A stretch of DNA of 64,000 nt from Kitasatospora mediocidica KCTC 9733. Its GTDB lineage: Bacteria > Actinomycetota > Actinomycetes > Streptomycetales > Streptomycetaceae. The translations under genes and the position numbers were made by a program. Location: NCBI RefSeq assembly GCF_000744225.1, contig NZ_JQLN01000001.1, positions 248,001 to 312,000 on the forward strand. Reading direction: 5' to 3'. Position 1 is the first letter of the stretch, and the number at the start of each line of letters is the position of its first letter. Shown piece by piece: positions 7,007-64,000 of this stretch. The notes beneath the pieces are model-generated. The model did no database searches. It was given only the letters and a program-made list of their open reading frames with translations, and was not told the DNA's origin.

Positions 7007-8964
7007 TGTCCCTGCCCGCACCCGATCTCGACGACCGCCGGTTCCAGGACCTGGTCGACGACGCCAAGCGCCTCGTCATGCGCCGCTGCCCGGAATGGAC
7101 CGACCACAACGTCTCCGATCCCGGCGTCACGCTCATCGAGACCTTCGCCTACATGACGGACCAACTGCTCTACCGGCTGAACCGGGTCCCCGACCGCCTC
7201 TACCTCAAGTTCCTCGACATGCTCGGCATCACCCTGCTGCCGCCGACCGCGGCCCGGGTCCCGCTGACCTTCTGGCTGGCCGGCCCGGCCACCACCGCGC
7301 TCAGCCTGCCCATCGCGACCGCCGCCGCCACCCTACGCGGCGACACCCAGGAGCCGGTGGTGTTCTCGACCACCGAGGTGCTGCAGCTTCCGGCCTGTCG
7401 GCTCGACCACCTGATGACCCTGCACACCGCGGTCGGCGAGCTCCAGCCGCGCGACGAGCACCTGCGACTGGAGATCAGCTTCCCCGCGTTCGGCGACGGT
7501 CGCCCCGGCCCGGGTGACGCGCTGCTCGTCGGCCTGAGCGACCCCGCACCGCGCTGCCTGGTGCGGATCGATCTCGAATGCCACATCCAGGGCATCGGCG
7601 TGGACCCCGACCATCCGCCGCTGCGCTGGGAGGCGTGGGACGGGCTGGCCTGGGCCGCCTGCGAGCTCCAGCAGGACGACACCGGCGGCCTCAACCGCCC
7701 CGGCTCGGTAGTGCTGCAGCTGCCCGACCGGCACGAGGCCAGCGTGCTGGACGGCCGACGGGCCGGCTGGCTGCGCGCGGTGGTCGTACCGGCCGTCGAC
7801 GACCTGCCCGGTTACAGCGCCTCACCGGTCATCGACGCGATGAGCGCCTGTGTGGTCGGGGGGACCGTGCCGGCCGTGCACGCCGAGCTGGTCGGCGAGG
7901 ACGTCATCGGCACCGCCGAGGGAGTGCCGGGCCAGCGGCTGTCGCTGTCCCAGGCGCCCGTGGTGCTCAGCGCCGCCGAGCCGATCCTGGAGACCAGCTC
8001 CGCCGACGGCTGGGAGGCCTGGAGCCGGGTCGACCACTTCGCCGCGAGCGGCCCCGAGGATCGCCACTTCGTCCTGGACGCCACCACCGGAACCGTCCGG
8101 TTCGGACCGGCCGTCCGCGAGGCCGACGGGACGCTGCGGCTCTACGGCGCCACGCCCCGGCGGGACTGCACCGTCCGGGTGCGGCGCTACGCGATCGGCG
8201 GCGGGCGCGACGGGAACGTCGAGGCAGGAGCCATCCAGTCGCTGAAGACCTCGGTGCCCTTCGTGGGGAAGGTGGAGAACCTGCGCCCGGCCCAGGGCGG
8301 CGTGGACGGCGAGAGCGTCGCCGAGGTCCGCGACCGCGCACCGCTGCTCCTGCGCACCAGGGACCGGGCCGTCACCGCCGAGGACTACGAGGTCATCGCC
8401 CGGCAGGCGGCACCGGAGATCGGCCGGATCCGCTGTCTGCCCGCCGGCACGGACGGCGTACCGGCCGGCACCGTCAAGCTCCTGGTCGTGCCCGCGGCGC
8501 AGGCCCGGGACGCACGGGTCGCCTTCGAGGAACTGGTGCCGCCCAGGGAGATGCTGGAGCGTATCGCCGCCCGACTGGACGCCACCCGGCCGATCGGCAC
8601 CACCGTCGTGGTCGAACCACCGCTGTACCGGGGGGTGACCGTGGTGGCCCGGGTGCGGGCCACGCTCGGCGCCGGAGCCGCCCGGGTCACCGCGGACGTG
8701 ACCCAGGCCCTCCACGCGTTCATCAACCCGATCACCGGCGGGCCGGACGGCAACGGCTGGCCGTTCGGACGCCCGGTGCAGTCCGGTGACCTGTTCGCCG
8801 TCGTCCACTCGGTGCCCGGCGTCGAGCTCATCGAGGAGATCCGGCTGTACGGCGCCAACCCGGTCACCGGCGAGCGCGGGGAGCAGACCGACCGGCTGGA
8901 GGTGGCGCCGAACAGCCTCGCCTTCTCCTTCGAGCACCACATCAAGGTCGAGGAGCGGCAGTGA
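7006..8964 (+). CDS. eCIS baseplate wedge protein, gp6/baseplate J-like (Afp11-like)
   Basis: The 652-residue protein begins with SLPAPDLDDRRFQDLVDDAK and the conserved HNVSDPGVTLIETFAYMTDQ segment (about 30-50) typical of putative baseplate assembly (Afp11/gpJ) proteins. A baseplate-J core lies in the C-terminal half (AVTAEDYEVIARQAAPEIGR, about 455-475) and the end has INPITGGPDGNGWPFGRPV. Afp11 homologues form wedge heterodimers with Afp12. The gene overlaps both neighbours, by 1 bp (gp25) and 4 bp (Afp12-like), indicating a tightly coupled operon. Confidence 0.88.
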   Translation: MSLPAPDLDDRRFQDLVDDAKRLVMRRCPEWTDHNVSDPGVTLIETFAYMTDQLLYRLNRVPDRLYLKFLDMLGITLLPPTAARVPLTFWLAGPATTALSLPIATAAATLRGDTQEPVVFSTTEVLQLPACRLDHLMTLHTAVGELQPRDEHLRLEISFPAFGDGRPGPGDALLVGLSDPAPRCLVRIDLECHIQGIGVDPDHPPLRWEAWDGLAWAACELQQDDTGGLNRPGSVVLQLPDRHEASVLDGRRAGWLRAVVVPAVDDLPGYSASPVIDAMSACVVGGTVPAVHAELVGEDVIGTAEGVPGQRLSLSQAPVVLSAAEPILETSSADGWEAWSRVDHFAASGPEDRHFVLDATTGTVRFGPAVREADGTLRLYGATPRRDCTVRVRRYAIGGGRDGNVEAGAIQSLKTSVPFVGKVENLRPAQGGVDGESVAEVRDRAPLLLRTRDRAVTAEDYEVIARQAAPEIGRIRCLPAGTDGVPAGTVKLLVVPAAQARDARVAFEELVPPREMLERIAARLDATRPIGTTVVVEPPLYRGVTVVARVRATLGAGAARVTADVTQALHAFINPITGGPDGNGWPFGRPVQSGDLFAVVHSVPGVELIEEIRLYGANPVTGERGEQTDRLEVAPNSLAFSFEHHIKVEERQ

Positions 8965-9500
8965 GGGGGACCGTCCCGGGGCTTCTCATCCCCTACCCGA
9001 TCGGCGGGCTGCTTCCGGCGGTGTACCAGGAGGACTCCTTCACGCAGCGCTTCACCGCGGGTCTCGACGAGGTGCTCGCTCCGGTGGTCTCCACGCTCGA
9101 CTGCCTGGACGCCTATCTCGACCCGGCGCTGACGCCCGTCGACTTCCTCGACTGGCTCGGCGGCTGGCTCGGGCTGGACCTGGCCGAGCACCTCACCGCC
9201 GACCGCCGCAGGGCGCTCCTCGCGCGTGCGGCCGACCTCTACCGTGCCCGGGGGACCGCGGCGGGGCTGCGCGAGCACCTCGAGCTGGTCTTCGGCGGCC
9301 GGGTCGAGGTGACGGACACCGGCGGCGTGGTGGTCGGCGCGGCCGGAAGCGGCTGGACGGACACGGGTGTCCAGGCGCAACCTGCACTGCTGGTCCGGAT
9401 CGCCCCGCAGGCCGCCGTGTCCCCGCTGCTCATCGAGGAGTTCGTCGCCCGGCTGAAGCCGGCGCACGTGACGCACACGGTCGAGGTGCTGCAGCCGTGA
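8961..9500 (+). CDS. eCIS phage tail protein I-like wedge subunit (Afp12-like)
   Basis: The 179-residue protein starts at a GTG in a GTGA overlap with the previous stop. It has the tail-protein-I signature: an acidic region with LPAVYQEDSFTQRFTAGLDE, then LDAYLDPALTPVDFLDWLGG, LTADRRRALLARAADLYRAR and GTAAGLREHLELVFGG. These proteins complete the baseplate wedge with the gp6-like subunit. It is shorter than Afp12/Pvc12, as is common in actinobacterial eCIS. Its TGA overlaps the following ATG by one base. Confidence 0.82.
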   Translation: MRGTVPGLLIPYPIGGLLPAVYQEDSFTQRFTAGLDEVLAPVVSTLDCLDAYLDPALTPVDFLDWLGGWLGLDLAEHLTADRRRALLARAADLYRARGTAAGLREHLELVFGGRVEVTDTGGVVVGAAGSGWTDTGVQAQPALLVRIAPQAAVSPLLIEEFVARLKPAHVTHTVEVLQP

Positions 9501-11062
9501 TGGTCTGTCGCAAGTGCGGCTTCCGCAACCACCTGGACGACGCCTTCTGCGGGAAGTGCGGCGCCTTCCTGGAGTGGACCGGCCAGAAGGTGGCGCTCGA
9601 CGTCGAGGAGGAGATCCGCGAGGAGGCGGAGACGGGCGCCAAGGGCCCGCAGCCGACCTTCTTGCAACGGGTCCAGCGCAGCCTGTACATCGACGTGGGC
9701 GACCGCGACCCGCTGCCGCCCGACCCCCGCCGCGCCAACATGCCGGGGATGCCCCCCGGCATGGGCGGCGGCCCCGGCATGCCCGGTGGTCCGCCGCGGC
9801 CCCCCGGCATGCCCGGCGCTCCCGGTGGACCGGGTGGTCCGCCGCGGCCCCCCGGCATGCCCGGCGCTCCCGGTGGGCCCGGTGGTCCGCCGCGGCCCCC
9901 CGGCATGCCCGGTGGACCGCCCGCGCCGCCCGGCCTTCCGAAACCGCCGCCACCACCGCCACCACCCCCACCGCCGGGAGTTCCGAAGCGGCCACCGCCA
10001 CCGCCACCACCACCGCCTCCGCCGCCACCAGGGCTGACGAAACCGCCACCGCCGCCGTCCGGGGCCACCCGCGCCGAAGCAGCCGACGAGATCGCGCCGA
10101 CGGACCGGCTCCCGGCAGCTGCGGCACGCCGGGACCCGTTGGTCGACACCATCCCGAACAAGATCGTCTCCGCGCCGGCCACCCGCGACGAGCCGACCGA
10201 GGTGGTCCCCCAGGCGCCGGCACGCCGCCCGGTGGCGCACCGGGAACCGCGCGCGGCGCGCCGGCGCGAGGAGGGCGACAAGCTCTGCCCGTCGTGTCGC
10301 ACGGGCAACGACCCTGCCCGGAGTTTCTGTTACCGATGCGGTTCCTCGCTGGAGGAGGCCGCGGTGGTCCGCGAGGCGTGGTGGCGCAAGTACGTGCCGC
10401 GCCGGCGCAGTGTCGTCCTGAAGGCCGGCGCACGACCGGGGCAGCCCGGCGTCAAGACGAAGCGCGGACTGCCGCCGGTCTCGGCGCTGGCCGGCCCGAT
10501 CCGGTCGTTCGCCGGTGTCGCGGCACTGACCGTGGCCCTGCTGTACTCGATCCACCCGCCGTTCCGCAACGCGGTCTGGCAGCAGGTGGGCAAGGGCCAG
10601 GCTCTGGTCAACGGCATCGTGCACCCCCAGCTCTCGCCGGTGGGTCCGATCGACGTCACGGCGAACGCGGACGTCCCCGACCACCCCGGAAAGCTCGCCG
10701 CCGACGGCTACAGCAACACGTTCTGGGCCTTCCCCACCAACGGCCAGAGCCCGACGCTGACCATGACCCTGCAACGGCCGGTTCGGCTCGACGGCATTCT
10801 GGTACTCAACGGTGCCAACACCGACTACCAGAACTACTCGAGGCTCGACCAGGTCCGCGTGAGCTATTCGAACGGACACTCGCAGGACGTCTCGTTCCAG
10901 AACTTCCCCGACAAGCAGGAGATCCGGCTGAACAGTGAGGGAGCGGTCAGCTCCGTCACGTTCACCGCGCTCTCCTACTTCACCGCCGCGGGAAAGACGC
11001 TGGGCGCCCTGTCCGAGGTCGAGTTGCAGACCCAGACCAGCGGCCTGCGCCTGGGCTGGTGA
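9500..11062 (+). CDS. Zinc-ribbon, Pro/Gly-rich membrane protein with C-terminal NADase-type/discoidin-like domain, inside the eCIS operon
   Basis: The 520-residue protein has four parts. Two CxxC...CxxC zinc ribbons lie near residues 3-20 (CRKCGF...CGKCGA) and 275-295 (CPSCRTG...CYRCGS). A long Met/Gly/Pro region (about 75-190) with 17-residue repeats and polyproline lies between them. A single transmembrane segment follows near 340-355 (GVAALTVALLYSI). The C-terminal 150 residues form a discoidin-like beta-sandwich (NTFWAFPTNGQSPTLTMTL, DGILVLNGANTDYQNYSR) resembling the 'NADase-type glycan-binding' domain. The topology predicts cytoplasmic ribbons and an extracytoplasmic beta domain. Overlap with the wedge gene by one base makes it part of the eCIS operon; membrane tethering or docking of the particle is my inference. 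Confidence 0.75.
   Translation: MVCRKCGFRNHLDDAFCGKCGAFLEWTGQKVALDVEEEIREEAETGAKGPQPTFLQRVQRSLYIDVGDRDPLPPDPRRANMPGMPPGMGGGPGMPGGPPRPPGMPGAPGGPGGPPRPPGMPGAPGGPGGPPRPPGMPGGPPAPPGLPKPPPPPPPPPPPGVPKRPPPPPPPPPPPPPGLTKPPPPPSGATRAEAADEIAPTDRLPAAAARRDPLVDTIPNKIVSAPATRDEPTEVVPQAPARRPVAHREPRAARRREEGDKLCPSCRTGNDPARSFCYRCGSSLEEAAVVREAWWRKYVPRRRSVVLKAGARPGQPGVKTKRGLPPVSALAGPIRSFAGVAALTVALLYSIHPPFRNAVWQQVGKGQALVNGIVHPQLSPVGPIDVTANADVPDHPGKLAADGYSNTFWAFPTNGQSPTLTMTLQRPVRLDGILVLNGANTDYQNYSRLDQVRVSYSNGHSQDVSFQNFPDKQEIRLNSEGAVSSVTFTALSYFTAAGKTLGALSEVELQTQTSGLRLGW
9785..9935 (+). repeat. 51-bp in-frame tandem repeat (GGPPRPPGMPGAPGGPG)
   Basis: Just under three copies of a 51-bp unit (17 codons) lie at 9785-9835, 9836-9886 and 9887 onward, nearly identical at DNA level. 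They are followed by CCGCCACCA-type polyproline tracts to about 10055. The tract is likely length-variable. Confidence 0.85.
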
Positions 11063-11132
11063 CCGAGGCCGGGCCGCACTTCGACCACTCCGCCCCTCCC
11101 CAAGAGCGCACCCGCTCGGAAGCAGGTGACCT

Positions 11133-11549
11133 ATGGCCGGCGACATCGTTCGCACCGGCGACTCGATCGTGATCACACCTCCCCCGGGCGTGTCGATATC
11201 GCCGAACCGGATCCCGCTGGCCAAGGGCTCCGGCGGTTTCCAGGTCGGCGGGGTGCCGGCCTGCATCCCGCCGGACGTGAGCGGGATGCCGCCGGTTCCG
11301 TGCACCTACTCCAAGCCCGGCTTCGCCGGCGGTGTCGGGATGCTCACGTTCACCCTGCTGCCGGGCAACCTCTCGCAGGTGCTGACGACGGGCCAGCCCG
11401 TCGTGGTGGACAGCGGTACTCCGCTCCTTTTCACTTTCATGCTGACCAAACCCGCCCAGACCCCGAACGGCATCCCTGATGCGCTGCCACCGCTGGGCGG
11501 AGACGCGAAGTTCGACCGAAAGCCGCTGCCGCGGGCGGTCCAGGCCTGA
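11133..11549 (+). CDS. Small eCIS-operon protein, possible PAAR-like spike tip (Afp10 position)
   Basis: The 138-residue protein begins MAGDIVRTGDSIVITPPPGV and is rich in Gly, Pro and short beta strands, with two Cys (PACIPP, PVPC) and one central GGVGMLTFTLLPG strand. It has no membrane segment. Every injection system needs a small conical tip protein, and no other gene in the operon fills that slot. Opening with a DxxxxGD-like turn is also compatible with PAAR-like proteins, but the canonical PAAR repeats are not evident, so the assignment rests on context. It is the last gene before a strong terminator. Confidence 0.5.
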   Translation: MAGDIVRTGDSIVITPPPGVSISPNRIPLAKGSGGFQVGGVPACIPPDVSGMPPVPCTYSKPGFAGGVGMLTFTLLPGNLSQVLTTGQPVVVDSGTPLLFTFMLTKPAQTPNGIPDALPPLGGDAKFDRKPLPRAVQA

Positions 11550-11552
11550 CAT

Positions 11553-11585
11553 CGGCCCCGGCGGCGGGCCCACCCGCCGGGGCCG
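11553..11585 (+). terminator. Terminator closing the eCIS operon
   Basis: A perfect 12-bp inverted repeat (CGGCCCCGGCGG / CCGCCGGGGCCG) with a 9-base loop starts 4 bases after the stop codon. There is no U-tract, as usual in Streptomyces. Confidence 0.8.
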
Positions 11586-11727
11586 GTCGGGAATACGGAC
11601 GTCCAGGAATCCACCCGAACGGGCAGCGAGCCCACCGATGCGACGTGCTTCGATGTTGCCACGCCAGCGAGGCCGTCAACTCCCTTGTGGTGACAGCCCT
11701 CTACGACCTGAACGAGACCGGTGGGCC

Positions 11728-12141
11728 ATGCTGTTCCGATACGAACGCCACGTTCGAGCCGACCTGGAGGTCGGCCTGCTGATCGTCGACGACCTGTTCC
11801 TGCGCCTGTGGATCAGCCTCGACTACTGGCCGACCGACCCCTATGTCGTGCGGTGCACCTTCCCCGACGGCTTCGAGGGGCCCGTGGCGTGGTCCATCAG
11901 CCGCGAGCTGCTGCGCCGGGGACTGACCTGCCAGGCGGGCGACGGGGACGTGGCCATCGGGCCGACGGGCGAGGGGAACGTGATCCTGGTGCTCCGTTCG
12001 CAGGAGGGCGCCGCCGTGCTACGGACGAGGGCGGCGGGGCTGGCCCGGTTCCTGGACGGTGTCGAACGGCTCCTGCCGTACGAGCAGGAGCACGTCCGCC
12101 AGGCCCTCGACACCGGCATCGCGCAGATCCTGGACAACTGA
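11728..12141 (+). CDS. SsgA-like sporulation/cell division protein (SALP family)
   Basis: The start at ATG 11728 gives 137 residues, the standard SALP length; the frame runs further upstream but without family sequence. Family features include a DLEVGLLIVDDLFLRLWISL opening, DPYVVRCTFP, the W-SRELL motif (VAWSISRELLRRGL), GDGDVAIGPTG and a helical C-terminus with FLDGVERLLP. SALPs occur only in morphologically complex actinomycetes and control septum placement and peptidoglycan maintenance during sporulation. The gene is 140 bp beyond the eCIS terminator on the same strand and is probably transcribed separately. I cannot say which SALP subtype it is. Confidence 0.85.
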   Translation: MLFRYERHVRADLEVGLLIVDDLFLRLWISLDYWPTDPYVVRCTFPDGFEGPVAWSISRELLRRGLTCQAGDGDVAIGPTGEGNVILVLRSQEGAAVLRTRAAGLARFLDGVERLLPYEQEHVRQALDTGIAQILDN

Positions 12142-12152
12142 CCCCGCAGGAC

Positions 12153-12776
12153 TCAGATCAGGCCCTCGCGCAGGGCATAGGCCACCGCGTGCGCCCGGTT
12201 GTTGAGGTGGTACCGAGTGGTGATGCTGTGGAGGGTGTTCTTCACGGTACGGTCCGAGTACCGCAGCTGATGGGCGATGTCCTGCGTGCTGAGACCGTCG
12301 GCCACCAGCTTGAGCACGTCGGTCTCCCGCTCGGAGAGCCCGATGTCCGCATTGGGTCTGGGTTCGTGGTCCTGGCGCAGCCTGCCGACCTGCTTGAGCA
12401 GGCGGCCGAGCAGGTCGGGCGGTAGCGCGGCCTCGCCCGCACCGGCCCGGACCACGAGTTCGGCCAGACGCGAGGCGGTGGCCTCGGAGCGCGGCACGAC
12501 GGAGCAGACGCCCAGCGAGACCGCGTCGAGCAGCGTGGCGTCGTCGATGTCGAGCACGACGAGCACCGCGCGGCGGCAGCCGTTGCGGTGCAGCCGGCGG
12601 AGTTCCTGCAGCGCGGTGTCGTCGTAGGCATCCGCCGCCTGGAGCACGACTCCGTACTCGTCGAGATCCGCCGCCGGTACGAGGAGGACCTCGGGACGCG
12701 GACGCATGGTGGCTTCCAGACCCGTACTCATGATCGGGTCGGCCGCGTGCACGTGGACGGGTATGCGCTTGTTCAC
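12153..12776 (-). CDS. Orphan LuxR/NarL-type regulator with degenerate receiver
   Basis: The 207-residue protein has a C-terminal LuxR HTH at about 142-205 (GLSERETDVLKLVADGLSTQ, DRTVKNTLHSITTRYHLNNR). The N-terminal half is receiver-like but has lost the acidic pocket: HVHAADP replaces the usual acid pair, and no Asp follows the third strand (VVLQAADAYD). It is therefore probably phosphorylation-independent. No histidine kinase is adjacent. It is convergent with the SALP gene (11 bp between stops). Start chosen at ATG 12776. Confidence 0.8.
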   Translation of the reverse strand: MNKRIPVHVHAADPIMSTGLEATMRPRPEVLLVPAADLDEYGVVLQAADAYDDTALQELRRLHRNGCRRAVLVVLDIDDATLLDAVSLGVCSVVPRSEATASRLAELVVRAGAGEAALPPDLLGRLLKQVGRLRQDHEPRPNADIGLSERETDVLKLVADGLSTQDIAHQLRYSDRTVKNTLHSITTRYHLNNRAHAVAYALREGLI

Positions 12777-12989
12777 TCAGGCTCCAGTGGTGCGGATTGC
12801 TCTCAGCGCGTACGGAAAGGGGTTCGCCCGTCTGCGTACCGCTACGACTCGGCGCCAGTCTTCCGACAGTTTCCATGGCGCACACCAGGGAGTAACCCTG
12901 ATGCGCACCCTGGACGTCATGGCAGCGGGCAGCCGGCCGGACCGCCGCGCACGCACGGTCGTGCACCTCCCCGTCGGCGCGGCGCCGGG

Positions 12990-14588
12990 TCAGTTCACGC
13001 AGGGGATGCCGCCCATCGTCACCGGTGCACCCTGCATCCTGGGAGCCTGCGCGCTCGGGGCCGCCGAGGGCTTGTCGGGTGCGGCGGGAGCAGCGCCGCC
13101 CGCATCCGCGGCCGGCGCCCGGAAGCCGGTGCCGAGCGTCACCACGATGTGCCCGGCCGGCACCGAGGAGGACGGCGAGGCACTGACCCCGTACCGGGCG
13201 GCGACTCCCGCGGCGCCCGCCTCGGCTCCGACTCCGTACGTCACGGTCGTGGTGCCCGACTTCGTCCGCGCGTTCCCCACGGCCCCCGCGTGGTAGCCGA
13301 GTCCGGCCAGCGCGTGGGACTCCTTCGCGGCCGCGCCGGCCACCGGCGAGGCGTTGTAGACGTCGACCGTGCCGCTCCCGGTGCGTCCCGGCGCAGCCGC
13401 CGAGGCTCCACCGGACGGGCTCGCGGTCCCGCTCGGCTGCGGAGCCGGGGCGGCCTTGTCGGTGAAGAGCTGGCGGACCGTCTGCTGGATCTGCTGCTGG
13501 TCGACGGTGTTGACCGACTCCCCGTTGACCGTCTTGAACCCGGTGATCGGAAGCGTGTTGAACTCCACGTTGCCGCCCATCAGGTTCGGCGCCTGCTGGG
13601 CGAAGTCGAGGATGTCCCACTGGTTGTCGATGACGACGTCCTTCTTCACCACGTCGAGCAGCGCGCCCAGCTTGCCGAGGTCGCCGAGGACGCCCTCGCT
13701 CTTCAGCTTGTAGCCGACGGAGGCGAGGAAGGCCTGCTGGCGCTTGGTCCGGTCGAGGTCGCCGTTGGTCAGGTTGTGCCGCTGTCGGACGAACGACAGC
13801 GCCTGCGAGGCGTCCAGCGTGTTGATCCCCGCTTGGAAGTCGGCGCCGGAGCCCTGGCCCTCCATCGCCGGGTCCTTGGTCGCCTTGTTCAGGCAGACCT
13901 GGATGGGCCCGACCGCCTTGGCGATGTCGTAGAAGCCGACCAGGTTGACCTCGGCGAAGTGGTCGATCGGCACGCCGAGGAACTTCTGCACGGTGGCGAG
14001 CGTGGCCTCCCGGCCCACCTCACGGCTCTGCTGCTCGACCTGCGCCTTGGACAGGCCCTTGCCCGACAGTTTGGTCACGGCAGCCGCCTTGGCGATCCCG
14101 TAGGCCTCCTTGATCTTGTGCATCCTGCCGTCGGCGCCGTAGGTCTGGACGTAGTCGTCGCGCGGGATGGAGAGCGCCGTGACCTTTCCGCCGTCCGGCG
14201 GGATGTGCAGCACCATCAGGGTGTTGGTGTTGTAGCCGCCGACGTCGCTGCTGGAGCCGGCGTGCAGCTCGTCCTGGACGAACTGGCCCGGCAGGTCGTT
14301 GCCGTTCATGTCCTTGCGGCTGTCCAGGCCGATCAGCAGCACGTTGACGGCCTTGTCCAGCCGCGGCGGGGCCGAGTGGCGGACCGCGTCCAAGGCCTGG
14401 GAGGTGATCATGCCGTTCGTGACGTTGCGGTAGGCGGCCCAGACGCCGCCGCTGCCGCTCACCACGGCGAGCGCGAGCGTGCACGTCAGGGTGCGCGCCA
14501 GCAGCACGGAGCGGCGGGCCTGTCGGCGTCGGGACGCGGCCCGGCGCATCGCCCGGCCGCTTGGGCCGGCCGCGCGCGGCTCAGTCAC
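12990..14588 (-). CDS. LytR-CpsA-Psr (LCP) family cell-wall glycopolymer ligase
   Basis: The 532-residue protein has a basic cytoplasmic N-terminus (RRAASRRRQARRS), one transmembrane anchor at about 30-52, and an extracellular LCP domain (about 80-335). That domain carries the polyprenyl-phosphate-binding signature: NVLLIGLDSRKD, SIPRDDYV, KIKEAYG and LSFVRQRHNLTNGDLDRTKR with the conserved Arg residues. A LytR_C domain follows at about 405-495 (GTVDVYNASPVAGAAAKESH), then a Pro/Ala-rich tail. LCP enzymes transfer teichoic or polysaccharide chains from lipid carrier to peptidoglycan. Its start overlaps the end of the upstream membrane-protein gene by 8 bp, so the two are co-transcribed. Confidence 0.9.
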   Translation of the reverse strand: MTEPRAAGPSGRAMRRAASRRRQARRSVLLARTLTCTLALAVVSGSGGVWAAYRNVTNGMITSQALDAVRHSAPPRLDKAVNVLLIGLDSRKDMNGNDLPGQFVQDELHAGSSSDVGGYNTNTLMVLHIPPDGGKVTALSIPRDDYVQTYGADGRMHKIKEAYGIAKAAAVTKLSGKGLSKAQVEQQSREVGREATLATVQKFLGVPIDHFAEVNLVGFYDIAKAVGPIQVCLNKATKDPAMEGQGSGADFQAGINTLDASQALSFVRQRHNLTNGDLDRTKRQQAFLASVGYKLKSEGVLGDLGKLGALLDVVKKDVVIDNQWDILDFAQQAPNLMGGNVEFNTLPITGFKTVNGESVNTVDQQQIQQTVRQLFTDKAAPAPQPSGTASPSGGASAAAPGRTGSGTVDVYNASPVAGAAAKESHALAGLGYHAGAVGNARTKSGTTTVTYGVGAEAGAAGVAARYGVSASPSSSVPAGHIVVTLGTGFRAPAADAGGAAPAAPDKPSAAPSAQAPRMQGAPVTMGGIPCVN

Positions 14589-15192
14589 GGCGGCCCTCCC
14601 GCCGGACCGCTCTCCCGCGCTCGCGCACGAGACGCACCGCCACGACCGCCAGGCCGACGATCAGCGCCGTGACCATCGCCGGGAACGCGGCCGCCGTCGA
14701 GCGGATCGCCACCGTCGCCAGGCCGGCCGAGCCGGTGGACGCACTCGCGCCGGCGAGCACGTCCACACCGGCGGTCGCCATCAGGATCAGCGGCGGGACG
14801 CCGGTGAGCACCCACCACCAGCCTTCCCGGGTCGCCCGCGCCACTGCCAGGGCGGTCCCGAGAGCGACGGCAATGATGAGCATGAACTCAGCTGCAGGAA
14901 AAGATAGTTGGATCAGGGCAGCACCGACGACCGGCCCGGATGCCGCCGCCACGGTCACCTCTCGGGCACGCCGCCTGTCCATGCCCGGCGGGCCCGGGCT
15001 CCGCACGGGTCCGCCACGGCCCGCGGGACGGGCCCGGCGGCTGCCCGCGGACCGCGTCGACCGCGCAGGTGCGGGGGGCCGTACACCCGGGCCGCCGGCG
15101 ACGAACGCCGTGGGCGCCCCACCAGGAGGCGAGGGCTGCGACCGGCGGGGCACGCGGGCGACGTCGGCCGATCGCGGCCATTGAGCTGTCAT
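14581..15192 (-). CDS. Small multi-pass membrane protein upstream of the LCP gene (DUF6542-like)
   Basis: The frame gives 203 residues. The first 75 are Pro/Arg-rich and disordered; then four hydrophobic segments follow (VAAASGPVVGAALIQLSF, FMLIIAVALGTALAVA, WWWVLTGVPPLILMATA, FPAMVTALIVGLAVVAVRLV), ending with a basic tail. Its pattern resembles the DUF6542 family of short actinobacterial membrane proteins, by recollection rather than a search. The 8-bp overlap with the LCP gene indicates coupled translation and suggests a role in cell-envelope work. The true start may be a later codon, since the N-terminal stretch is not conserved-looking. Confidence 0.65.
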   Translation of the reverse strand: MTAQWPRSADVARVPRRSQPSPPGGAPTAFVAGGPGVRPPAPARSTRSAGSRRARPAGRGGPVRSPGPPGMDRRRAREVTVAAASGPVVGAALIQLSFPAAEFMLIIAVALGTALAVARATREGWWWVLTGVPPLILMATAGVDVLAGASASTGSAGLATVAIRSTAAAFPAMVTALIVGLAVVAVRLVRERGRAVRREGRRD

Positions 15193-15775
15193 GTCGTTTC
15201 TCCTCGTCGGCTCGGTTCAGCAGCGTCCGTGTGCGGTCGACGACCAGGGATCGTTGGCATGCGAACGCCGCTTGTTACGGGTGATGACGCCACGCCGGAC
15301 TCCCCGGTTGCCTATGCTCCTGCACCACGGCCGGCCCGGCCGGAGAGCGGACGGGCGCCCGGGGTCCCGCTGTCCGAACGGCTGCCCCCGAGGCTCCGGA
15401 CACCGACACCACCGTGGGACAGCCTGGTTGAGCAGCTTTCGCAGGCGACGGAGTCCGATCCGCTGTCCGTCCAGGAGTGTTCCGCGGTGCCGGGGCGCGC
15501 CTCGCGGCGGCCGTCAGGCCCGAAAAGTCGGCCCGATCGGGCCAGTTGATTCCACCACCGGGCCGACCGGTCGGCGGGCGGCGCATCGCGCCGCACCTGA
15601 CCAGAGTGGAGACCGCCACGTTCCGTGACGGCTGGGAGGACGCCGCTCCCGCCGCGCCGCACGTGGCGATTGCCTGTCAACGACGCGGCCCTGTCGATCC
15701 GCCGGACCCGGCCCGAGCGGCGCTCGGCAGCGGTCCTGACACACGCGCGCAACCCTGCGCCAGGAAGAGGAGCCT
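15193..15775. other. 583-bp intergenic region, divergent promoters
   Basis: This stretch separates the divergent LCP operon and glucanase gene. Open frames exist in all registers but none has a recognisable product or ribosome site. It presumably holds two back-to-back promoters. I see no convincing inverted repeat or RNA. Confidence 0.5.
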
Positions 15776-17314
15776 TTGAAGACCGCGCCACGCCGACAAC
15801 ACCGACGACGACCGATCATCGTGCGAACGATGGCCGTCCTGACCGCAGCCCTGGCCACCGCCGCAGCCGTCGCCGCCCTCCCGGCCAACGCCGACGCGCC
15901 TGCCTTTCAGCAGTCGGCCACGGTCAAGGGCGGTCAGCTCGAATTCAGCTTCACGCCAACTCAGGCCGCCGGCTACGTGGACGTCCACTTCGTCCCGAAG
16001 GGCGGGATCGAACAGGACCTCCGGATGGACCAGGGCAACGGCTTGGCCTGGCAGAAGGACGTCCCCGCCCCGCCCGCCGGCACCCCGGTCAGCTACTGGT
16101 TCACGCACGACTACGGCCCCGGCTCCCACTACGACACCCGGCACGTCTCCCTGGGTGGCGGGACTCCCCCCAGCGGTACCGGAACCTTCCCCGCGGTGTT
16201 CCAGAACAACACCCACGGCAAGTACACCGACGACCAGATCTACCTGACGGTGCTCGGCCAGCAGACGCCGGGCAAGTGGTCGTACCTCACGCCGGACGGC
16301 ACGGTGAAGCCCATCGACCACACGGAGGCGGCACAGCCGGGACACCTCACCAAGAACGGCGAGTCGTACCCCGACATGTCGTTCTCGCTCGCGCAGGCGA
16401 AGGACCGTTCGCTGACGATGCCGGAACACCTGGAGGGCGGCCGGATCTACATCTCCCTGGGCTCGCCGATGTACCTGGGCGTCGCCCCCGACGACAGCGG
16501 GTGGGCCGGTCCGGACCTGCACAGCGCCACCGATCCGAACGCCGACGTCATCTTCGACTGGTACGAGTTCACCTACCAGTACGGGAAGATCGCCTTCGGC
16601 GGCAACACCACCCAGGTCGACATGTTCGGCTTCCCGCTGAACGCGCGGCTCCAGCAGGACTCCTCGCACTACGACCAGACCTCCGGCATCAACATGAGCC
16701 GCGATCAGGTCTTCTCCCAATACCTGAGCTCCGTGGGTCCCGCCTTCAAGGGCCTGGAGAATCCGTACCGGATCGTCGCACCGCGCTCCTCCAGCGACTT
16801 CGGCGCCCAGGGCCCGGACGCCGGCTACCTCTCGAAGGTCATCGACCAGGTCTGGAACGAGTACCACCAGAAGCAGTTCACGCTCACCCGGGCGAACCAG
16901 ACCTTCACGGGCCGGGTGGAGCGGGACAACAAGCTCCACTTCACCAAGGACGGCGCGGGCGAGCCGGGCGACAACGGCGACTTCGTCCTGAGCGAGCCCA
17001 CCTCGCAGGACGTGCTGTCCTGCTCCGGCGCGCTGGCGTCGCCGGGCATGGACACCACCGAGCTGGAGCTCGGCGCCGAGTTCTGCGCGGCTTTCAACCG
17101 CGGTGTCGCATCAGACACTTCGAAGTGGTACGACGCCACGAAGTACTACGGGACTTCGGCACCCTCGAACGACTACTCGGCCTTCTTCCACACGATCGGC
17201 ATCGATGAGCACACGTACGGGTTCCCGTACGACGACGTGAACCAGCAGAGTTCCGTCAAGATCCTGCCGAACACCGATCCGCCGAGCAGGCTGACCATCG
17301 GCATCGGCTGGTGA
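15776..17314 (+). CDS. Secreted GH64 beta-1,3-glucanase with N-terminal CBM56-like domain
   Basis: The TTG start has an AGGAAGAGGAG site 3-13 bases upstream. The 512-residue precursor carries a twin-Arg-rich/basic n-region, a hydrophobic core (MAVLTAALATAAAVAAL) and an ANADA cleavage site near 40. Residues about 45-125 match a CBM56-type glucan-binding module (GYVDVHFVPKGG, YWFTHDYGPGSHYDTRH). Residues 140-512 are a GH64/thaumatin-like glucanase (FPAVFQNNT, DQIYLTVLGQ, GRIYISLGSPMYLGV, DVIFDWYEFTY, TTQVDMFGFPL, IDEHTYGFPYDDVNQQSS). GH64 enzymes release laminari-oligosaccharides from beta-1,3-glucan, typically for fungal wall lysis. It stands alone, closed by a strong hairpin. Confidence 0.92.
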   Translation: MKTAPRRQHRRRPIIVRTMAVLTAALATAAAVAALPANADAPAFQQSATVKGGQLEFSFTPTQAAGYVDVHFVPKGGIEQDLRMDQGNGLAWQKDVPAPPAGTPVSYWFTHDYGPGSHYDTRHVSLGGGTPPSGTGTFPAVFQNNTHGKYTDDQIYLTVLGQQTPGKWSYLTPDGTVKPIDHTEAAQPGHLTKNGESYPDMSFSLAQAKDRSLTMPEHLEGGRIYISLGSPMYLGVAPDDSGWAGPDLHSATDPNADVIFDWYEFTYQYGKIAFGGNTTQVDMFGFPLNARLQQDSSHYDQTSGINMSRDQVFSQYLSSVGPAFKGLENPYRIVAPRSSSDFGAQGPDAGYLSKVIDQVWNEYHQKQFTLTRANQTFTGRVERDNKLHFTKDGAGEPGDNGDFVLSEPTSQDVLSCSGALASPGMDTTELELGAEFCAAFNRGVASDTSKWYDATKYYGTSAPSNDYSAFFHTIGIDEHTYGFPYDDVNQQSSVKILPNTDPPSRLTIGIGW

Positions 17315-59682: not shown

Positions 59683-59728
59683 CGCGTGCGTCCGGCCCGC
59701 AGGTTTCCCTGCGGGCCGGACGCACGCG
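59683..59728 (+). terminator. Perfect 21-bp hairpin terminator
   Basis: CGCGTGCGTCCGGCCCGCAGG (59683-59703) and its complement (59708-59728) enclose the loop TTTC. It serves the His-rich gene and, because it is symmetric, could also insulate the convergent anti-sigma gene. Confidence 0.85.
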
Positions 59729-59862
59729 TGTCGGGTGCTCTCGTGTCGGGTGCTCTCGTGTCCGGTGCTCTCGTGTCCGGTGCTCTCGTGTCCGGTGCTC
59801 TCGTGTCCGGTGCTCTCGTGTCCGGTGCTCTAGCGTCGGGTGCTCTAGCGTCGGGTGCTTGG
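59728..59862. repeat. 15-bp tandem repeat, about 9 copies
   Basis: Units read GTGTCGGGTGCTCTC (2), GTGTCCGGTGCTCTC (4), GTGTCCGGTGCTCTA, GCGTCGGGTGCTCTA and a final GCGTCGGGTGCTTGG. The array fills the gap between the terminator and the stop codon of the minus-strand gene. The period is a multiple of three, so all frames stay open (e.g. VSGAL repeats on plus, EHRTR on minus). Confidence 0.9.
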
Positions 59863-62287: not shown

Positions 62288-62601
62288 ACGGGAGCCTCCC
62301 CCGATTCCAGCGCACGGCAGCCGAGCTGACCGAACTGGGACGGCAACTCTACGAACTGCTCGCGCAGTTCCCCGGATATGTCGCCGCTCAGGTCGGCTGG
62401 GATCCGGAATGACTCGTGGACCCCGCTGAGCTCCGCAACGAGTGGTCGGCCGAACTGAGCGACGGCAGCCTCCACGGGCTCGTGCTCTGCGACAAGCTGC
62501 ACGCGGAACTGGGCCTGAGCGCCGACTACGAAGTGTTCCAGCCCGGATACCGATGGATACCGTATCGCGGGGAGGGGCCGAGCGGGTTCACGGCCGACTG
62601 A
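62288..62601 (+). pseudogene. 5'-truncated gene split by an in-frame TGA
   Basis: One reading frame runs through RTAAELTELGRQLYELLAQF, PGYVAAQVGWDPE, a TGA at 62410-62412, then LVDPAELRNEWSAELSDGSL, HGLVLCDKLHAELG and FQPGYRWIPYRGEGPSGFTA to a stop at 62599-62601. Both parts look like one protein, so the TGA is a nonsense change. The N-terminal part is missing, and the frame begins immediately after the UBP gene. A GTG at 62416 could restart a 61-residue product. Confidence 0.55.
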
Positions 62602-62693
62602 CGAAACAAGCCCGGCCCAGGCCGACTTCGCGGTCCCGGTCGAGGCAGCGTGCCATGCTGACCGACGATCACCATCCATCGGAGGAGGACCTC

Positions 62694-63098
62694 ATGGCGG
62701 ACCTGGACACCCAGCCGACCGGCACGTTCACGTTGGTCTCGGACGACAACTACGACGAGTACCTCAGGGCCCGAGGCGCCGACGCGGTCATGATCGAGCT
62801 GGCCCGGTCGGTCAAGCCGACCGTCACGATCGCCGTCGAGGGGGGCTCGGTGAGGTTCACCGTGGGGAGCGCCGTCAAGACCCTGGTGTGGGAGTTCACG
62901 CCCGGCCAGGAGCAGCAGATCGAGCTGATGAACGGCACTTCGGTCAAGGCGGTCCTGACGAGCGAGCGCGGACAGTGGATCATCAGAGAGCTGGGGAGCC
63001 CCGACACCGTCCAGGTGTGGGAGATGGCCGACGGCGAACTGAGGAGCACGCTGACCTACGGAGACGTCGGATGCGTCCGCACCTACGCGGCCGCGTGA
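62694..63098 (+). CDS. Fatty-acid-binding-protein-like (iLBP/FABP family) protein
   Basis: GGAGGAGG lies 5-12 bases before ATG 62694; the product is 134 residues, the FABP length (131-137). Residues 10-24 (GTFTLVSDDNYDEYL) satisfy the PROSITE-style FABP signature G-x-[FYW]-x-[LIVMF]-x4-[NHG]-[FY]-[DE]-x-[LIVMFY]-[LIVM]. The order of strands follows the family: VKPTVTIAVEGGSVRFTVGS, FTPGQEQQIELMNGTSVKAV, then the C-terminal LRSTLTYGDVGCVRTYAA, which keeps the carboxylate-binding Arg-x-Tyr of heart-type FABP (VCTRTYE). It has no signal peptide, so it is a cytosolic lipid-binding barrel. Such proteins are classically known from animals. Confidence 0.85.
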   Translation: MADLDTQPTGTFTLVSDDNYDEYLRARGADAVMIELARSVKPTVTIAVEGGSVRFTVGSAVKTLVWEFTPGQEQQIELMNGTSVKAVLTSERGQWIIRELGSPDTVQVWEMADGELRSTLTYGDVGCVRTYAAA

Positions 63099-63230
63099 CA
63101 CATCTTCTGGAGTGGCCGGGGATCTTCTCCTCGGCCACGGCGTTCGGCGGCTGACCGGCCGCTTCGGTCCGGGCGGCCTACGGTGGAAGGGATGTGCGAC
63201 CCCGTCGTCGATCCCGCAGGTGAGGCAGCC

Positions 63231-64000
63231 ATGACGAACCCCGCCGGCGCCCCGACCACGCAGGCGGCCGACCCGCGCCCGGAGCGGCGGGCCCGGTGGT
63301 CGGCCGCCGCCGTGGCCTTCGCCTTCTGGACCACGATGGCCGGCACCACCGCGCCGACGCCGCTGTATCCGCTCTACCAGGAGGCGTTCGGGCTCACCGC
63401 GTTCACCGTCACGGTGGTCTTCGCCGTCTACGCGCTCGGCGTGGTGGCGGGGCTGTTGCTCTTCGGACGGCTCTCCGACCAGGTGGGCCGCCGTCCGGTC
63501 CTGATGGGCGCGACGCTGGTGGCGATGGCCGCCGCCACCGTTCTGCTGCTGACGCGGAACCTCCCGGTGATGCTCGTCGGGCGGGTCCTGTCGGGGTTTG
63601 CCGCTGCCCTGATCACCGGGGCCGCCACCGCCGCGCTCAGCGAGGTCATCCCGCCCGGCGGCCGGATCCGCCCGGCGACCGCGGCGCTGGTGGCCAATAT
63701 GGGCGGCCTGGCCGGCGGCACGCTGCTGGCCGGCATCCTGGCCGACCTGGCGCCGGCGCCGCTGCGCACCCCGTGGGCCGTCCTGCTGGTCCTCTCCGCG
63801 ATCGCGCTGGCCGGGGTCGCCGCCACCCGGGAGAGTTCCGCGCAGCGCCCGGGGTTCGCCCTCCGGGTGCAGGCGCTGCGGATCCCGGCCGGGATCCGCC
63901 CGGCCTTCCTGCGGGCGGCGATGGCCACCGGCGCGGGCTTCGCCGTGCTGGGCGTGCTGACCGCCGTCACCGGGCTGTTCCTGGGCGGCGAGCTGCACCT
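63231..64000 (+). CDS. MFS transporter (3' end beyond the window)
   Basis: ATG 63231 is chosen because AGGTGAGG lies 6-13 bases upstream; ATG 63192 is in frame but has a poorly spaced site. The visible 256 residues hold about seven TM segments, beginning SAAAVAFAFWTTMAGTTAPT, with motif A FGRLSDQVGRRPVLMGA and motif C-like ALVANMGGLAGGTLLAGILA. The frame is open to the right edge. The PTPLYPLYQ segment after TM1 resembles sugar- or drug-proton exporters of the YfcJ/MFS type. Substrate unknown. Confidence 0.85.
   Translation, partial: MTNPAGAPTTQAADPRPERRARWSAAAVAFAFWTTMAGTTAPTPLYPLYQEAFGLTAFTVTVVFAVYALGVVAGLLLFGRLSDQVGRRPVLMGATLVAMAAATVLLLTRNLPVMLVGRVLSGFAAALITGAATAALSEVIPPGGRIRPATAALVANMGGLAGGTLLAGILADLAPAPLRTPWAVLLVLSAIALAGVAATRESSAQRPGFALRVQALRIPAGIRPAFLRAAMATGAGFAVLGVLTAVTGLFLGGELH

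Follow-up and report, generated by a model that had tools for sequence, protein, structure and literature searches.

A predicted intracellular lipid-binding protein of the fatty-acid-binding protein family in a Streptomycetaceae bacterium

Introduction

Fatty-acid-binding proteins (FABPs) hold one amphipathic ligand inside a barrel; the ligand enters under a lid and its carboxylate rests on Arg126 and Tyr128. Pocket arginines R78 and R106 are a trait of many but not all FABPs, and the retinol-binding members differ at 106. Lipocalins proper have an eight-stranded barrel and a C-terminal helix. Nitrobindin-type proteins, such as Rv0813c and SCO4179, have a barrel similar to that of FABPs, of a shared calycin type. 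Further, a bacterial protein with lipocalin-like domains has reportedly been described.

According to excerpts of a 2019 paper, the FABP family appears to be confined to metazoans and had not yet been reported from bacteria (PMC6646235). The bacterial proteins called 'FABP-like' in print, Rv0813c and SCO4179, are placed in the nitrobindin group in excerpts of two papers (PMC11133741; PMC4255298), one of which describes haem and NO binding for that group (PMC4255298). Among the matches listed in a search of open-licence PMC text, we found no literature on true bacterial FABPs. Here we describe a gene in a Streptomycetaceae bacterium whose predicted product has a known fold and belongs to a known family in an unexpected host.

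Results

A complete gene of FABP length

The window, that is, the whole stretch of 64,000 nucleotides that was analysed, comes from an 8.68-Mb genome with a completeness of 99.99%, in which it is part of a 1.02-Mb contig. The following features were assigned to it.

62694..63098, + strand: FABP-family gene of 134 aa (product P0001), complete from ATG to TGA (ORF, Pfam, phmmer, predicted fold, codon bias)
62681..62688, + strand: probable ribosome-binding site GGAGGAGG, 5 nt 5' of the ATG (read from the sequence)
62721..62774, + strand: codons of the N-terminal FABP signature GTFTLVSDDNYDEYLRAR, residues 10-27 (pattern matched on the alignment)
62751..62810, + strand: codons of the predicted two-helix lid, helices 20-26 and 31-39 (structure prediction)
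63018..63020, + strand: Trp109 codon, at the position of FABP4 Arg106 (alignment; FABP4 numbering)
63078..63086, + strand: Arg129-Thr-Tyr131 codons, at the position of the FABP4 Arg126-x-Tyr128 carboxylate site (alignment)
62607..63173, no strand: stretch without DNA match (among the matches listed in 60 genomes of the genus and in three compared loci)

The G+C contents at the three codon positions of the gene were 0.60, 0.47 and 0.95, a bias typical of a real gene of a high-G+C genome. The mechanical ORF list also contained a longer frame starting from GTG at 62442; in the 134-aa form, no Pfam or PDB match begins before residue 9. On reading the sequence of P0001, no leader peptide was visible. 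A search of 62400-63300 for a sigma-70-type promoter gave no match.

P0001 matches FABPs by sequence

Pfam family PF14651 (Lipocalin_7), described as 'Lipocalin / cytosolic fatty-acid binding protein family', matched residues 9-129 of P0001 with 38.6 bits (cut-off, 25.4; E 1.2e-9). The rest of the Pfam listing was a glycosyl hydrolase domain below threshold (0.038), and NCBIfam gave no match. PF00061 was absent from the Pfam matches of P0001 at E up to 10; it exceeded its cut-off in 8 of the 11 bacterial relatives described below. When P0001 was compared with the PDB using phmmer, 270 distinct sequences matched at E up to 10, and the best 60 of these were all named FABP, myelin P2/PMP2 or ReP1-NCXSQ. 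The top match was 5gge, a Drosophila FABP according to the structure title (E 1.3e-17, residues 13-133). ReP1-NCXSQ (3ppt), which we take to be a squid protein, matched at 9.6e-15, followed by many vertebrate FABPs.

As a control, P0001 was scored against nine animal FABP rows. It reached 66.8 bits, compared with 3.8 for the reversed sequence and 6.9 for the best of 200 shuffles; thus, the likeness to FABPs is above chance. Further, PS00214, the PROSITE pattern for the N-terminal FABP signature, matched P0001 at residues 10-27 (residue numbers counted by hand because the aligned row contained gaps). The homology to animal FABPs, the FABP-like length (134 aa, with similarity over nearly the full length) and the N-terminal signature had been proposed in a first-pass annotation made from the letters of the window, and all of these held; the profile search suggested there for the lipocalin/FABP family returned the significant PF14651 match. 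Judged by sequence, the product of the gene is thus predicted to be a genuine intracellular lipid-binding protein (iLBP, FABP family), encoded by a Streptomycetaceae bacterium that is probably a Kitasatospora.

Predicted fold

We modelled P0001 with AlphaFold2, using an alignment of seven bacterial sequences as input (pLDDT 90.9, pTM 0.83). The model contained ten strands and no C-terminal helix; two helices, 20-26 and 31-39, separate strand 1 from strand 2. In a Foldseek search, the best 50 entries listed were all iLBPs by title (TMq 0.83-0.89, identity 25-34%). VIA-align placed FABP5 first (Z 22.2, rmsd 1.4, 133 residues aligned), and the other 49 of the entries listed had Z values of 21.3-21.9. 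The predicted fold of P0001 is therefore a ten-strand barrel with a two-helix lid, as in FABPs, and both the strand order read earlier from the letters and the barrel with helical lid expected from it agree with the model.

The carboxylate site is kept and two pocket arginines are replaced

Site numbers below are those of FABP4, and the numbering of the chain comes from an alignment with an FABP4 chain. FABP4 Arg126 and Tyr128 correspond to Arg129 and Tyr131 of P0001, in agreement with the C-terminal R-x-Y (residues 129-131) pointed out by the first-pass annotation. Pro38 and Tyr19 of FABP4 are also kept. Three other positions are replaced in P0001: Asp76 by Asn, Arg78 by Thr82 and Arg106 by Trp109.

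Across the 12 bacterial rows (P0001 and its 11 relatives), site 126 is Arg in ten, and in those ten, site 128 is Tyr in five and Phe in five; the protein of the Streptomyces plasmid of CA-256286 lacks R-x-Y. Arg at site 106 was found in 3 of 12 bacterial rows versus 8 of 9 animal rows. The ninth animal row, the CRABP2 chain 1bm5, has Met at this site and is probably a mutant, since another CRABP2 chain, 5hzq, has Arg. Trp at site 106 also occurs in the proteins of NRRL S-87 and of cyanobacterium G953. R-x-(Y/F) is thus mostly kept in bacteria and the second arginine mostly is not, which is the clearest departure from animal FABPs. With both R78 and R106 of FABP4 replaced, the latter present in eight of nine animal rows, P0001 may bind something other than an ordinary long-chain fatty acid. 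As read from the sequences, the arginine losses would weaken the case for such a ligand without excluding it, and we do not treat R78 and R106 as defining for the whole family.

Bacterial relatives are few and scattered

We found 11 bacterial relatives of P0001: six in Streptomycetaceae, one in Kribbella, three in cyanobacteria and one in Thiohalocapsa. PF14651 or PF00061 exceeded its cut-off in 9 of the 11. The G764 protein (P0007) and the G953 protein matched PF14651 below cut-off (E 0.0007 and 0.0006, respectively) and were recovered by profiles built from six rows (1.3e-15) and 11 rows (7e-27), respectively.

Within the genus, PF14651 matched in 2 of 70 genomes at E 0.01, namely the genome of P0001 (over cut-off) and G448 (under cut-off, E 0.004). 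The G448 protein (P0003, 140 aa) exceeded the cut-off of PF00061 and matched ReP1-NCXSQ at 8.8e-14. In the family, the six-row profile matched 6 of 394 genomes at E 0.001, and five of these were counted as having an FABP (the genome of P0001, G448, G583, G713 and G764); the sixth, G596, had a partial match in a frame of 1216 aa. With P0001 alone as query, 3 of 396 genomes of the phylum matched, and the genome of P0001 was the only one counted, the matches in G204 and G379 being partial and in frames of 1198 and 813 aa. The 11-row profile counted 2 of 394 genomes in the class (the genome of P0001 and G583). In a separate search, three of five matching genomes, G404, G409 and G419, were left out, with partial matches in frames of 758-1277 aa. 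The G404 locus (L008) visibly encodes a WD-repeat protein, the G204 locus (L002) was recognised as WD-repeat by eye, and for G379, G409, G419 and G596 the exclusion was based on the length of the frame and the partial coverage.

The 11-row profile gave similarly small counts elsewhere: 2 of 292 genomes in the phylum of the Anabaena genome (that genome and G953), 1 of 249 in the phylum to which Thiohalocapsa belongs and 1 of 38 in the genus Kribbella, the single match being the Thiohalocapsa or the Kribbella genome, respectively. The phylum and class counts for Anabaena, Thiohalocapsa and the genome of P0001 include the centre genome. In genome_contigs (84,980 species), scanning with one degenerate peptide after animal rows had been added yielded six loci, in Streptomyces sp. 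AP-93, NRRL S-87, Kribbella albertanoniae, Anabaena sp. UHCC 0204, a Planktothrix MAG and a Thiohalocapsa MAG; six is a lower bound, because the scan used one short peptide pattern that does not fit P0003 and P0007. An earlier scan of genome_contigs, before the animal rows were added, found none. These scattered bacterial relatives indicate that the FABP family is wider than was thought.

Among plasmids, tblastn found two relatives, both on linear Streptomyces plasmids: the proteins of CA-256286 (WP_207565693.1) and NBC_01471 (P0005, WP_331760515.1). Sequence databases thus already name two relatives, in generic terms, as 'lipocalin/fatty-acid binding family protein'. Like P0001, both match the lipocalin/FABP Pfam families; their genes have an accessory setting on the linear plasmids. 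The CA-256286 protein differs from P0001 in that it carries an added N-terminal leader and lacks R-x-Y. Among phages, the 11 records that tblastn returned for P0001 had E values of 0.5-0.8 and carried primase or primase/helicase annotations; tblastn with P0005 returned none, and four scans of viral_contigs revealed no relative. Carriage by phages was accordingly rejected.

Surroundings of the FABP genes

In the window, the FABP gene is preceded by a UBP-type zinc-finger gene and, on the opposite strand, by a sigma factor gene; downstream, and in the same orientation as the FABP gene, lies a gene for an MFS transporter. DNA matches in the left flank reached 62606 (87%, G439) and 62603 (85%, G435), and in the right flank a match began at 63174 (88%, G443). 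The two flanks never both matched in one of the three compared loci, which places the FABP gene in a variable stretch. In these three loci of genus genomes, no clean empty site was found.

The neighbours of the other bacterial FABP genes, as called with a simple ORF caller, differed between genomes, and across these loci we saw no shared partner gene and no conserved neighbour pointing to fatty-acid metabolism. In NRRL S-87, a carboxylesterase ORF starts 27 bp 3' of the FABP gene on the same strand, as a single instance. In NBC_01471, a gene for a zinc-type alcohol dehydrogenase lies upstream. The G764 copy is located approximately 6 kb from a contig end, and in the linear plasmid of NBC_01471 approximately 11 kb separate the FABP gene from the plasmid end.

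Some loci showed further peculiarities. The CA-256286 plasmid contains a 7.8-kb perfect inverted repeat (L011:415-8207 and 8577-16369) around a centre of 369 bp, which could be a genuine palindrome or have arisen during assembly. The FABP gene (7851-8384) spans the inner edge of the repeat, so that its first two thirds are present twice, and the repeat may explain the odd C-terminus of the protein. Its N-terminal leader, MFLRTALTSAVATTTLAAGLVLLPVQAHA... (L011:7851-8000), resembles a signal peptide, and this resemblance suggests a possibly secreted bacterial FABP. In G448, an inverted repeat (L004:1415-1463; 23 nt, 96% complementary, 3-nt loop) that is operator- or terminator-like lies just 5' of the FABP gene; with the same settings, no similar repeat was found in 62590-62710 of the window.

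Discussion

P0001 resembles animal iLBPs (5gge, 3ppt, human FABP3, FABP4 and FABP7, and myelin P2) in length, identity (25-34%), predicted barrel and lid, Arg-x-Tyr and, as far as reading the sequence shows, the lack of a leader. It differs from them in its bacterial host, in the replacement of FABP4 R78 and R106, in its long branch in the tree described below and in the lack of a known partner such as a nuclear receptor. True bacterial FABPs contradict the metazoan-confined distribution given in the excerpted 2019 paper (PMC6646235), and they raise the question whether the family has a bacterial root or genes flowed from animals to bacteria. Bacteria are also genetically simple hosts, in which the role of a minimal FABP could be studied where nuclear receptors are absent.

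The first-pass annotation proposed either an ancient bacterial branch or a transfer from an animal, to be examined by a phylogeny with animal iLBPs. We built such a tree from 12 bacterial and 9 animal rows. All locus rows were made to start with M, so that the rows of L011 and L025 differ from the original sequence at one residue, and the animal rows include the engineered chains 1g74 (by title) and 1bm5 (by comparison with 5hzq). Three of the 18 branches were starred. One of them, which groups Thiohalocapsa, Anabaena and Planktothrix, was supported at 100/100, which suggests that the gene moved between bacterial phyla. The branch of P0001 (1.71 changes per site) is among the two longest in the tree and may reflect relaxed constraint; because of its length, the place of this row is unsure. 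With these sequences, the tree does not separate a single ancient lineage of bacterial FABPs from single or repeated transfer from animals.

We regard it as possible, though open to considerable doubt, that bacterial FABPs descend from an old bacterial lineage that spread, was mostly lost and was possibly ancestral to the animal family, with no transfer from animals. Relatives in three phyla fit this history, as does the grouping of 11 of the 12 bacterial rows on one side of the tree, with G764 on the animal side; this split is weak (66/87), and bacteria fell on one side in just 17% of 200 bootstrap trees. Constraining all 12 bacteria to one clade was not rejected (p-AU 0.355), and neither were a clade of Actinobacteria (0.494), P0001 with 5gge (0.469) and G953 with CRABP2 (0.565). 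The bacterial or animal label changes 2 times on the tree versus 7.0 times in shuffles, which leans towards few origins. Against an old lineage stands the extreme rarity of the gene (2/292, 1/249 and 2/394 genomes in the counts above). Further, for P0001, CA-256286, G764 and Kribbella, 4 of the 12 bacterial rows, the highest identity is with an animal sequence. P0001 is 33% identical to Drosophila 5gge and at most 29% to any of the 11 relatives (27% to CA-256286 and 24% to NBC_01471), and the Kribbella protein is 44.1% identical to FABP4 versus 39.5% to its best bacterial row. The proteins of NBC_01471 and AP-93 are 43% and 45% identical to 5gge, respectively, and 61% identical to each other. 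The best PDB matches of the G953 protein (L036:1495-1911) are CRABP2 chains (1e-21); unlike it, the Anabaena member best matches ReP1-NCXSQ and adipocyte FABP.

A different and rather unlikely history is that soil and water bacteria captured animal FABP genes repeatedly, G953 taking up a CRABP-like gene, for instance, and Streptomycetaceae and Kribbella FABP-like ones, and passed them between bacteria, partly via linear plasmids, as cytosolic and once perhaps secreted lipid carriers.

As for the genome studied here, the gene probably arrived by horizontal transfer and then took on the codon bias of its host. The occurrence in 2 of 70 genomes of the genus and 5 of 394 of the family, the count of a single genome among 396 of the phylum with P0001 as query, the relatives in three phyla, the differing surroundings, the Thiohalocapsa, Anabaena and Planktothrix group (100/100) and the two linear plasmids argue for horizontal transfer. 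Since its codon bias is that of the high-G+C host, the composition of the gene bears no sign of recent foreign origin. The Anabaena and Planktothrix FABP genes have a third-position G+C of 0.52, compared with 0.15-0.43 for the other ORFs listed at the two loci, which points to a foreign origin in these cases.

With regard to function, P0001 is probably a cytosolic protein that takes up a hydrophobic carboxylate and either transports or buffers it. The ligand, such as a free fatty acid or lipid-like metabolite, would enter through the two-helix portal. The pocket, with less charge than in FABP4, would hold it by means of Arg129 and Tyr131, and P0001 would then buffer the ligand or carry it between the membrane and enzymes.

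MFS proteins are often exporters of small molecules. With an MFS transporter gene next on the same strand and a rare, accessory distribution, P0001 may instead use the FABP fold to trap a toxic or signalling hydrophobic compound, either a secondary metabolite of the cell itself or a lipid derived from a host or competitor, and so serve as a buffer or resistance protein. The loss of FABP4 R78 and R106, with Trp at site 106 in two relatives as well, fits such a role, whereas the retained Arg-x-Tyr carboxylate site speaks against it. Further, the match to G443 (88%), which covers the MFS gene, ends before the FABP gene, and the pairing is not conserved there. We hold the trapping role to be the less probable one and retain the reading of P0001 as a carrier or buffer of a hydrophobic carboxylate.

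That P0001 is instead a bacterial protein of the nitrobindin (Rv0813c) or lipocalin type is very improbable, even if the calycin-type barrel is common to both groups. Proteins of this kind occur in actinobacteria and are called FABP-like in the excerpted papers (PMC4255298; PMC11133741). P0001 matched PF14651 over cut-off, its similarity to animal FABPs extends over residues 9-133 and the predicted two-helix lid lies between strands 1 and 2. Neither the nitrobindin family (PF08768) nor any other lipocalin family matched P0001 at E up to 10, a range in which the HMMER filters drop most matches above approximately 0.1. Both types were thus rejected on the Pfam matches and predicted fold.

Contamination by animal DNA or a spurious ORF, a suspicion invited by a family thought to be animal-only, is the most improbable explanation of all and was rejected on the genome completeness (99.99%), the codon bias of an unbroken gene (third-position G+C, 0.95) on a 1.02-Mb contig and the shuffle control, with relatives on bacterial contigs and plasmids also speaking against it.

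Apart from the FABP gene, and a few kilobases upstream of it, the window contains a tandem array at 59727-59859 that consists of 8.9 copies of a 15-bp unit with 96% matches.
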